This document shows positions 13,166 to 20,023 of a stretch of DNA of 64,000 nt, one piece after another. Location of the stretch: contig WHTT01000003.1 in NCBI GenBank assembly GCA_009377605.1, positions 1 through 64,000 on the forward strand, written 5' to 3'. How positions within the stretch are numbered: the first letter of the stretch is position 1; each line of letters begins with the position of its first letter. The stretch comes from Luteitalea sp. GTDB taxonomy: Bacteria > Acidobacteriota > Vicinamibacteria > Vicinamibacterales > Vicinamibacteraceae. The notes beneath the pieces were generated by a model, which saw nothing but the letters and a program-made list of their open reading frames with translations, searched no databases and had not been told where the DNA came from. The translations under genes and the position numbers were made by a program.

Positions 13166-14503
13166 ATGGGGGAGCCGACTATCCTGCCTCGCAGCGAGCA
13201 CGGGCTCTCGCGGCGAGACATCGATCCTGACGCCCTCAAGGTGCTGTATCGGCTCCATCGTCATGGCTTTACGGCGTACTTGGTCGGCGGAAGCGTCCGT
13301 GACCCGCTCCTTGGTCGCCGGCCGAAGGACTTCGACATCGGCACCTCAGCTCATCCTTATCAGGTCAAGCGACTCTTCCGCAACTGCTGGGTCATCGGCC
13401 GGCGCTTTCGCCTGGCGCACGTGCGCTTCGGGAACAAGACGATTGAGGTTGCTACCTTCCGGCGAACGCTGCCGGCCGGCACCGAGACGGAACCGCCGCT
13501 CGTGAGCCCGCATGCGGGGACGGCCGGCAGTGACAAGCCCGCGACAGCGGCTCCGAGACCGTCCGCGGCGCGCGATCTGGATCCGGCAAGCCGCATCGTC
13601 CGGCGCGACAACACGTTTGGCACGCCCGAGGAAGACGCCTTCCGACGTGACTTCACGATCAACGGTCTCTTCTACGACATCGCCACCTTCTCCATCATCG
13701 ATTACGTTGGCGGTCTTCGTGACCTGGAAGCGCGCGCGGTTCGCTCGATCGGCAGTCCTGACGAGCGATTCCAGGAAGATCCCGTGCGTATGCTGCGCGC
13801 GGTCGTGCTGGCCTCGCGGCTCGACTTTATCCTCGATCCCGCAATTCCGGAAGCCATCCGCCGGCACGCACCACTCATCGCGCAGAGCGCGCCGGCACGC
13901 CTGCTCGATGAGTACTACAAGATCCTGCGCAGCGGTGCCGCACGGCTTTCCTTTGCGCGCTTGGCGGACAGCGGCTTGCTCTACCACCTCACGCCAGAGC
14001 TCTTGACGGGCGACCTCGCGAGCCTGGAGCGGTCGCTCGAAGTGCTGGACAGCTACCGAGCACGGTTTGCGCAAGCACCGGACACGCTCACGAACACAAT
14101 CCTCATGGGCACGCTGCTCGTACCGCTCGGCCTGCTCGGAGCACGCAGCCGGAGCCCAGGTGATGCGGAGACATCGCCTCTCCGAACGCTGGGACTGCTG
14201 CCGGTGTCGCGCCGCGATCTCGAGCGGCTCGTTCAGGCCCTCGACTTGCAGGCGCGATTACTCCAAACGGACCGGCCGGTGCGAGCGCAGCGGGGCGTCC
14301 TGCACCGCAGCGCGCTCGGAGACGCGGTGACGTGGCTCGAGCTTCACGACAACCGCCCTGACGTGGTGGCGTATTGGCGCGACCTGCTGGCACAGCGCGG
14401 CCGCGCGCGGCCGGTCGATGGCTCTGACCCGGATGATCAGGACTTGCGCTCTCGCCGCCGACGCCGGCGCCGCCGCGGCGGTCGCCGTTCGCGACCAGGC
14501 TAG
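13166..14503 (+). CDS. pcnB: Poly(A) polymerase I / tRNA nucleotidyltransferase family protein (PcnB type)
   Basis: 445 residues of the class II nucleotidyltransferase fold. The head has LVGGSVRDPLLGRRPKDFDIG (about 36-56) with the catalytic D-x-D, followed by VIGRRFRLAHVRFG, the PcnB-type signature. EEDAFRRDFTINGLFYD (about 155-171) and RFQEDPVRMLRAVVLASR (about 202-219) complete the neck. The arginine-rich tail (SRRRRRRRRGGRRSRPG) resembles the basic tails of bacterial poly(A) polymerases rather than CCA-adding enzymes. Such enzymes add 3' A tails to RNA to promote decay; CCA addition cannot be excluded by sequence alone. The stop TAG is the outer TAG of a 166-bp repeat element. The start follows a TATAAT with no room for a ribosome-binding site. 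Confidence 0.88.
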   Translation: MGEPTILPRSEHGLSRRDIDPDALKVLYRLHRHGFTAYLVGGSVRDPLLGRRPKDFDIGTSAHPYQVKRLFRNCWVIGRRFRLAHVRFGNKTIEVATFRRTLPAGTETEPPLVSPHAGTAGSDKPATAAPRPSAARDLDPASRIVRRDNTFGTPEEDAFRRDFTINGLFYDIATFSIIDYVGGLRDLEARAVRSIGSPDERFQEDPVRMLRAVVLASRLDFILDPAIPEAIRRHAPLIAQSAPARLLDEYYKILRSGAARLSFARLADSGLLYHLTPELLTGDLASLERSLEVLDSYRARFAQAPDTLTNTILMGTLLVPLGLLGARSRSPGDAETSPLRTLGLLPVSRRDLERLVQALDLQARLLQTDRPVRAQRGVLHRSALGDAVTWLELHDNRPDVVAYWRDLLAQRGRARPVDGSDPDDQDLRSRRRRRRRRGGRRSRPG

Positions 14504-14665
14504 TGTCCTGTCTCAGTGATTCGCGACATAATTCCCGGGCGGGGCATCCCACCTGGCGTCGTTGCTCGTCGGTCACATACGGCCTGTATGCTCCCTCCTC
14601 GCGCCTCGCCAGCCGGGCGCCGCGCTCCGGGACTTATGCCACGAATCACTGAGACAGGACACTAG
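14500..14665 (+). repeat. 166-bp structured element, copy 1 (terminal arms, conserved core)
   Basis: The outer 24 bases (14500-14523) and last 24 (14642-14665) are exact reverse complements, beginning CTAGTGTCCTGTCTCAG. Pairing continues to 37 bases with 3 mismatches. The asymmetric core 14561-14628 (starts GTTGCTCGTCGGTCAC) matches copy 2 at 64 of 68 bases. The left CTAG supplies the TAG stop of the PcnB-type gene; the right end lies 12 bases from the serC stop. No transposase or open frame under protein-level constraint is inside. Confidence 0.9.
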
Positions 14666-18565: not shown

Positions 18566-18731
18566 CTAGTGGGCTGTATCAGGCATTTGTGAAGTGGCTG
18601 GCGGAGCGCGGCGCCCGGCTGGCAAGGCACGAGGAGGGAGCATACAGGCGATATGTGACCGACGAGCAACGCCGCCAGCCGGGATGCCTCGCCCGCCAGG
18701 CGCTTTACAAATGCCTGATACAGCCCACTAG
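18566..18731 (-). repeat. 166-bp structured element, copy 2 (inverted relative to copy 1)
   Basis: Exactly the same length and layout as copy 1, on the other strand. The outer 25 bases (18566-18590 and 18707-18731) are exact reverse complements, beginning CTAGTGGGCTGTATCAGG, and pairing extends to 37 bases with 3 mismatches. The core 18603-18670 matches copy 1 at 64 of 68 bases. Within the 24-bp perfect stem six positions differ from copy 1, and all six are compensated on the opposite arm. The CTAG at 18728-18731 provides the TAG stop of the M23 lipoprotein gene. Confidence 0.9.
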
Positions 18732-20023
18732 GAGCCACTCTGGGCTTCTTGGGGCCGCTTTTCTGGCGGGGCCCCCGCCTCAGCGACGACGGCGGCAGGG
18801 CTCACGAAGCGCGTCGCGGTCTGCTGCTGGAACGTCGTGAACCGCGCGCGGTACTTGGCTGGAATCGGGTCACCTGGCGGCAGCTTGCGGTGCTCGACGA
18901 GCGGGTTGCGATGCCGACCGTTGCGGAGCAACTCGTAGTGGAGGTGTGGGCCCGTGGCGAGGCCTGTCGAGCCGACGCGCCCAATCATCTGTCCCTGTGC
19001 AACGCGCCGTCCGGCTCGAACTCCCTTGGCGAACGACGACAGATGCAGGTATCGAGTCTCGTACCCGCGATCGTGGCGGATTGCCACCGTGTTGCCACCA
19101 CCACCCATCCGGCCTGCCTTGAGCACGACACCGCTCGCGACCGCGATGATGGGAGCGCCCCGCGACGCGCCGTAGTCGACGCCACGATGTGCGCGAACCC
19201 GACCAAGCACCGGATGAAGCCGACGATACGAGAACCGCGACGTGACGCGCGGCTCGAATTGCAGCGGCGTGGCCAGCATGAACCGTTTTACCGACCGTCC
19301 TTGGCGATCGTAGTAGCCTGGCTTGCCACCCGGCGGCGTGAAGCGAAAGGCTTCATAGCTACGCCCGCCAGTCGTGAGGCGCGCGGCGATCAAGTCGCCG
19401 TACCCAACGAACTCACCCTCGCGCACGACCTTCTCGAAGACCAGGTCGAACTCATCCCCCACGTGGAGGTCGTGATGGAAGTCGATGTCGCCGCCGAACA
19501 CCTCCGCCATCTCGATGGCGAGCGGCTCCCGTTCGCCAGCTTTGCCGAGCGCGGCGATGAGCGACGGGTGCTCCTCCGAGATGGCGCCCTGCACCGAGAC
19601 GAGCGCGCGTGACTTCTCGTACGGAACCACTTTCACATCGAACCGCGGCTCGCCGTCCGGCTCCTGCAAGCCCACGATGCGCAAGAAGCGATCGGCGTCG
19701 ATCTCATAGGTGAACTCGCGAATCAGGCCATCGACCGTCCATTCGAGCCGATAGCTGTGATCGGCCCGCAGGTGGCGCGGATCGAAGGTCCGCCGCATCG
19801 ATTCAATCAATGAGTAGACGATGTCCTCGCTCACCTCGTGGGCCCGCAGCAGGCTCGCGAAGGTCGCGTTGCGCGGCACGCGCGCCTCGATCACCTGCGC
19901 CGCCTCTCGTGCGAGGACGATGTCGCGGCTCACCCTAGTGGACACCCGTTGCGCCGCCGGTTGCGAGCAACCGACCAAGAGCATGACGGCCGCCACCGCC
20001 AGGATTTGTCGAACGCTCCTCAT
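18728..20023 (-). CDS. M23 family metallopeptidase, lipoprotein
   Basis: 431 residues. A lipoprotein signal MRSVRQILAVAAVMLLVGC puts Cys19 as the lipidated residue. An N-terminal region with OapA/LysM-like sequence (RNATFASLLRAHEVSEDIVYSL) probably binds peptidoglycan. The C-terminal LytM domain has the zinc ligands HRGVDYGA (H-x3-D, about 283-290) and GPHLHYEL (about 364-371). Family members cut peptide cross-bridges in cell-wall peptidoglycan or activate amidases. It is divergent from the M28 peptidase gene. The stop TAG is formed by the edge of a 166-bp repeat, so the last few residues (AQSGS) may not be original. Confidence 0.92.
   Translation of the reverse strand: MRSVRQILAVAAVMLLVGCSQPAAQRVSTRVSRDIVLAREAAQVIEARVPRNATFASLLRAHEVSEDIVYSLIESMRRTFDPRHLRADHSYRLEWTVDGLIREFTYEIDADRFLRIVGLQEPDGEPRFDVKVVPYEKSRALVSVQGAISEEHPSLIAALGKAGEREPLAIEMAEVFGGDIDFHHDLHVGDEFDLVFEKVVREGEFVGYGDLIAARLTTGGRSYEAFRFTPPGGKPGYYDRQGRSVKRFMLATPLQFEPRVTSRFSYRRLHPVLGRVRAHRGVDYGASRGAPIIAVASGVVLKAGRMGGGGNTVAIRHDRGYETRYLHLSSFAKGVRAGRRVAQGQMIGRVGSTGLATGPHLHYELLRNGRHRNPLVEHRKLPPGDPIPAKYRARFTTFQQQTATRFVSPAAVVAEAGAPPEKRPQEAQSGS

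Follow-up and report, generated by a model that had tools for sequence, protein, structure and literature searches.

The two 166-bp repeats in the 64,000-nucleotide stretch of Luteitalea sp. DNA analysed here (hereafter the window) probably represent a MITE superfamily that is moved in trans and whose interior is a selected, transferable core fold that may function as RNA in read-through transcripts. The identification of their arms as terminal inverted repeats of non-autonomous DNA transposons (MITEs) is well supported. The interior of about 96 nt is a separately conserved single-strand fold with compensatory changes, and this core, a covarying fold common to several phyla, is the strongest part of the finding and the one that the initial annotation had missed.

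Copy 1 (14500..14665, + strand) and copy 2 (18566..18731, - strand) are complete single-core MITEs of 166 bp with arm types A (CTAGTGTCCTGTCTCAGTGATTCG) and B (CTAGTGGGCTGTATCAGGCATTTG), respectively. In copy 1, the left arm, or terminal inverted repeat, occupies 14500..14538 (+), with perfect pairing over its outer 24 bp, and the right arm 14627..14665 (+). In copy 2, the left and right arms, named in the orientation of the element, lie at 18693..18731 and 18566..18604 (both -). The folded core is found at 14535..14630 (-) in copy 1 (covariance model R1, 85.3 bits, E 2.4e-17; R2, 79 bits) and at 18601..18696 (+) in copy 2 (R1, 90.8 bits, E 1.2e-18; R2, 89.8 bits), and these are the only matches to R1 in the window better than E 0.4. 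Predicted folding energies are -102 kcal/mol for copy 1 and -108 kcal/mol for copy 2. The initial annotation had described this pair accurately: coordinates and strands are exact, the 68-base cores differ by 4 mismatches, and the terminal stems are perfect over 24 and 25 bp, with most of the remaining arm bases paired as well. Each of the six differences between the copies in the first 24 bases (7, 8, 13, 18, 19, 23) has its complementary change on the opposite arm, and all four ends read CTAGTG/CACTAG.

The core is a hairpin carried by the strand opposite to copy 1, which we call the GA strand. It reads AAGGCGC-GA-N-GA-NN-GA-G-[stem]-loop-[stem]-T-GA-NN-GA-N-GA-GCAACGC within a longer stem, so that copy 1 comprises an outer stem, an AAGGCG.../...GCAACG internal loop, three tandem G.A modules and an apical hairpin, GCATAC..GTATGT. 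The three tandem G.A mismatches are formed by opposed GA dinucleotides and are spaced by one and two Watson-Crick pairs; these spacer pairs covary, the single pair being G-C, C-G or A-T. The tandem mismatches and the AAGGCGC/GCAACGC internal loop are usually kept. Analysis of an essentially gap-free alignment of 37 cores (A2) revealed 89.5% paired cells versus 74.4% after shuffling, with two-sided change at 23 of the 30 pairs. The covariation score was 0.396 versus 0.143 for shuffled alignments, none of 500 shuffles reached it, and it fell to 0.07-0.10 when the partner was slid by 1-3 columns. A larger set of 124 matches scored 0.660 versus 0.179, in an alignment that was fitted to the structure and hence leans towards it. 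An open reading frame runs through copy 2, but a peptide product was set aside: the core varies by compensatory pairs, not codons.

Wobble states indicate which strand folds. In a non-redundant set of 66 cores (similarity below 80%), G.T combinations outnumber A.C by 143 to 42; leaving out the conserved wobble pair at the base of the hairpin, which is kept in 46 of these 66 cores, the counts are 97 and 42 (p ~4e-6 if cells are independent). This excess means that one strand folds alone, rather than both as a cruciform; it fits RNA and single-stranded DNA alike and does not distinguish between them. A scan of 16 loci against Rfam (15) with permissive thresholds gave no relevant match to any core.

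Similarity to the core, some of it weak, was detected in 20 of 40 relatives, and 19 of the 119 genomes of the phylum matched R1 at E <1e-4, several of them with at least 35 matches. Searching 85,000 species genomes with a fixed pattern returned at least 116 stretches, many of them in metagenome bins, which can be misassigned. The 80 matches listed cover about ten phyla or classes: Acidobacteriota, Gamma- and Alphaproteobacteria, a deltaproteobacterium, Myxococcales, Verrucomicrobiota, Elusimicrobia, Omnitrophota, Acidimicrobiia and Planctomycetota. Core matches also come from isolates (Sphingomonas, Alloalcanivorax) and from Azotobacter, Halomonas and Pseudomonas plasmids. Invariance at the bases fixed by the pattern is no evidence of conservation, and the covarying positions had been left free. 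The arms of the pattern-matched elements are mutually unrelated yet self-complementary, and are AT-rich in one of them (L144). No exact pattern match occurred among 2.9 million viral contigs, and the consensus core gave no blastn match to plasmids, phages or E. coli.

With both copies and the central 81 bases as DNA queries, the core was located at about 40 places in the genome, an undercount, several of these lying at contig ends. Five contigs (C38, C53, C82, C94 and C150) start or stop inside elements; the assembly is probably broken there, and copies are undercounted. With the full element as query, genome-wide copies were recovered with E-values down to 4.5e-78, which places the repeat family beyond chance. 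The aligned copies carry at least seven arm types, A (CTAGTGTCCTGTCTCAGTG), B (CTAGTGGGCTGTATCAGTC), C (GGGCCTGTCAGGGAATAAG), D (GTGGTCCGGTGCACAAATAC), E (CTAGTGYGGTGTCTCCGAAAT), F (GGGTCCGGTAAGAAATAAGG) and G (GGACTCGTCTGGGAATAG), and a further type, H, is dominant in the relative G022. Alignment of these copies bore out the expectation of many elements with a conserved core and variable, self-complementary arms: the arms pair in nearly all complete copies, and they are not constant throughout the family. Within type A, positions 12-16 vary (TCTCA, GAACA, GCCCA, TAACA, TCCGC), and the other arm is matched each time.

In 16 gap-free copies, 91.8% of arm cells are paired versus 76.9% after shuffling, and the arm covariation score of 0.361 (0.109 shuffled) was reached by none of 500 shuffles. 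Two-sided changes occur at 18 of the 39 arm pairs; in the outer 24, nearly all changes are two-sided, with very few one-sided or G.T states, these counts being of sequences and not of independent events. The scarcity of such intermediates suggests that arm pairing reflects the symmetry of DNA ends and not a selected RNA helix. The pairing and covariation described in the initial annotation are real, and reflect the symmetry of terminal inverted repeats, not a new pairing rule. Its exclusion of an ordinary MITE is not supported. The elements are about 160 bp long, lack coding capacity, occur in about 40 dispersed copies and end in terminal inverted repeats, which are constant within a subfamily and differ between subfamilies; moreover, both this genome and that of a relative contain IS630-family elements whose ends match. 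One palindrome of 78 bp (L080 1501-1578; G000:C28:46380-46457) has type-A arms and CTAG ends but no core, and a degraded core element with other ends follows it immediately. This core-less arm pair between CTAG ends may mean that the core is not needed for movement.

The flanks of the elements point to transposition. Direct 3-bp repeats, TAA/TAA or TTA/TTA, flank 19 elements of types C, D, F and G and are true target duplications because they are non-palindromic. Three type-H elements show 4-bp YTAR duplications, TTAG/TTAG (L292, L293) or CTAA/CTAA (L247). Types A and B are always flanked by CTAG, which fits a TA or CTAG target and is palindromic, so that a duplication cannot be read from it. 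In a same-genus genome, the element is absent from both orthologous gaps, but these are filled by about 2.3-2.8 kb of other DNA, so that neither is a clean empty site.

IS630 partners were sought through the transposase domain PF13358. The genome itself contains a 1197-bp IS630-family element (L347) encoding a 374-aa transposase with DDE_3 (PF13358) and HTH domains, whose ends (CTAGTGTCCTGACCGCGTG; CTAGTGTCCTGACCGCGTGGTTCG) match the arms of one MITE (L007) at 22 of 26 bases; the remaining CTAG sites in the window give no more than 14, apart from copy 1 itself with 21. In G022, a 1160-bp IS630-family element (L348) has a right end that shares 24 of 26 bases with the right arm of copy 1 and 23 of 26 with the left arm. 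The ends of L347 and L348 differ from each other in block 12-16, the block that varies in type-A arms, as expected of transposase-specific ends. The arms thus covary because both ends match one transposase, and transposon-end symmetry explains the pattern. Another IS630-family element, with ends CTAGTACATCGTCCGATTAGT, was noted at L352 932-2129 (G000:C8, adjoining L004), inside the CTAG that ends a type-A MITE.

The initial annotation had called for a search for co-occurring transposase genes, IS5-family genes included. This succeeded for type A, with the IS630-family elements; IS5-type candidates collected through PF01609 and PF13586 included none with matching ends. The other arm types yielded no autonomous element whose ends match, also around the PF01609 loci examined. 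IS5/IS1031 elements target TNA (3 bp) and YTAR sites, and types C, D, F and G show the 3-bp TNA duplication. An insertion sequence with type-H-like ends (L128) was dropped as a partner since these ends do not enclose its transposase gene. A transposase-like locus within a near-perfect inverted repeat of about 170 bp (L129 352-2718) is unrelated to the core elements.

We propose that IS630-family transposases would move the CTAG types in trans, and that IS5/IS1031-like transposases would probably do so for the TAA/TTA and YTAR types. Insertion would occur in CTAG, TWA or YTAR sites, often stop codons, which it would restore. Each subfamily would have arms of its own, suited to a different transposase; within one element, binding by the same transposase, perhaps with the help of hairpin-templated correction, would keep both ends matched. 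Different transposon ends would have picked up the same core repeatedly.

Bacterial MITEs are usually seen as remnants that particular IS elements have left within a species, and their interiors as of no importance. A conserved interior joined to exchangeable ends would mean that selection on a fold, beyond recognition by a transposase, seems to decide which mini-elements persist. Among described repeats, RUP of Streptococcus pneumoniae is an IS630-linked MITE whose ends match an IS630 element of the same genome (PMC2229807). RUP and the present elements share a length of about 100-200 bp, an intergenic location, a TA-containing target and IS630-matching ends, as in type A; RUP is however one family in one species with no cross-phylum core reported, whereas here the interior crosses phyla and also occurs on ends that are not of IS630 type. 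QMITE1 of Coxiella, about 50 copies and transcribed, is described as combining variable ends with a conserved core (PMC5896051), which makes the original statement that no described element behaves in this way slightly too strong. QMITE1 is 300-400 bp long and confined to Coxiella.

ERIC (IRU, RU-1) of enterobacteria is likewise a MITE-like palindrome, 127 bp long and transcribed, with a long hairpin. Its centre in E. coli (L246 121-164), CCAG-GA-GCTTAC-ATAA-GTAAGT-GA-CTGG, has the same GA-hairpin-GA apex as the core, and AAGGCG and AACGC stretches stand at similar places. ERIC differs by its single G.A module and by having no known variants with exchanged ends. Against two covariance models, the E. 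coli ERIC scored 6.8 and 8.1 bits (E 0.12 and 0.041, 284 bases), below significance; this is a resemblance, homology is not demonstrated, and the elements are not filed as ERIC. By analogy, ERIC offers the closest working model for function: it is transcribed together with adjacent genes, and its effect on mRNA stability depends on its orientation (PMC2229807).

MITEs and IS630-linked MITEs are already known, and for one species a MITE is mentioned whose ends vary around a conserved core (PMC5896051). A covarying core common to different ends across about ten phyla is undescribed as far as our searches reach and absent from Rfam 15; a literature search, with subscription journals mostly outside its coverage, found no paper on a cross-phylum MITE core. 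It is quite possible, if short of probable, that the core is a widespread selfish module of structured RNA (or single-stranded DNA) which has moved between mini-transposons of unrelated transposases, of IS630 type (CTAG/TA) and of IS5/Harbinger-like type (TWA, YTAR), in some ten phyla, with ERIC as a distant relative.

The elements are found at gene ends. Copy 1 lies between a PolyA_pol gene (ORF 13166-14503, PF01743) and a convergent aminotransferase class-V (serC-like) gene, and its terminal CTAG supplies the TAG stop of the PolyA_pol gene (14501..14503, +). Copy 2 is at the 3' end of an M23 peptidase gene (ORF 18728-20023, PF01551), adjoining a DUF1015 gene, and its terminal CTAG likewise supplies the TAG stop of the peptidase gene (18728..18730, -). 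With ORFs called by a codon model, 72 elements showed 27 contacts with gene 3' ends within -5..+3 bp and 2 with 5' ends. Insertion at a stop codon restores the stop and is harmless because the target sites contain TAG and TAA. Between tandem genes, 25 elements are in sense and 19 in antisense orientation, with no consistent bias, which weakens the case for a cis-acting 3'-UTR role. A sense-strand 3'-UTR role had been considered from a ratio of 19:7 in this genome and was dropped, the ratio being reversed elsewhere (6:12).

Our best guess for the function of the core is a structured RNA within read-through transcripts, possibly acting at their processing. A widely conserved host factor, such as RNase III, RNase E or an RNA-binding protein, could bind or process the fold, which might make gene-end insertions tolerable or help the element persist. 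We weighed against this, as an unlikely yet serious contender, a fold that works as single-stranded DNA, with the GA strand extruding (on the lagging-strand template or at excision) and aiding transposition, replication or repair. Tandem G.A pairs are stable in DNA too. Strand-specific folding is compatible with either molecule, the elements lack an orientation bias relative to genes, and a core common to elements with different transposases is what a replication or repair function predicts. However, DDE transposition of double-stranded DNA, indicated by the target duplications and the IS630-like ends, needs no hairpin, and a conserved G.U-type wobble at the hairpin base (46/66) is typical of RNA.

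An RNA fold under selection also has to be set against an ordinary MITE interior, conserved only through recent shared ancestry and horizontal spread, in which unselected hairpin-templated (quasipalindrome) correction would produce the pairing. Few sources do give rise to whole MITE families, and correction would lead to what the arms display, changes almost all matched and few intermediates. For the core we consider this improbable: neither the tandem G.A mismatches nor the AAC bulge would survive correction, but most copies keep both while the flanking pairs turn over. The arms are wholly replaced between phyla with the core still recognisable, and the G.T excess over A.C is strand-specific. 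Most improbable is a core that is itself a mobile unit inserting into the loops of existing palindromes or MITEs, the arms belonging to the target: this would account for a constant core in variable self-complementary arms and for the core-less type-A palindrome L080, but the arm-core junction has no duplication or fixed boundary, the inner stem joining arm and core covaries as one helix, target duplications flank the arms and not the core, and L080 resembles an internal deletion because arm-proximal bases are retained.

On the reading that we prefer, a selected fold carried by exchangeable ends, the role of ERIC-like repeats becomes testable across many phyla with one covariance model. The elements are an unannotated repeat and a possible RNA family; in hundreds of genomes they interrupt assemblies and lie at the ends of genes.

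The core also occurs in pairs. A two-core query found Azotobacter, Halomonas, Methylophaga, Magnetococcus and Pseudomonas plasmids, and two-core elements were recognised in Thiodiazotropha, Woeseiaceae, Halomonas, Azotobacter, Sphingomonadaceae, Verrucomicrobiota and Omnitrophota. They measure about 245-290 bp, with inverted cores and, in most, terminal inverted repeats of about 20 bp, and include elements whose repeats are perfect over 20 bp or more; examples are L343 2988-3188, L345 2934-3136, L132 7362-7562 and L199 1894-2113. As two joined inverted hairpins with many extragenic copies, they recall REPIN/BIME, the REP doublets moved by RAYT, from which the present elements differ by their long terminal inverted repeats, their core of about 96 nt and the target duplications around single-core elements. 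Several second cores lack the G.A modules and keep the AAGG.../...AACGC loop, which suggests that the loop is the more basic feature. On the Azotobacter plasmid pAcX50f, in a stretch where the PLSDB gene table lists no gene (L343 1771-2953), an IS630-family transposase in two reading frames abuts the two-core element.
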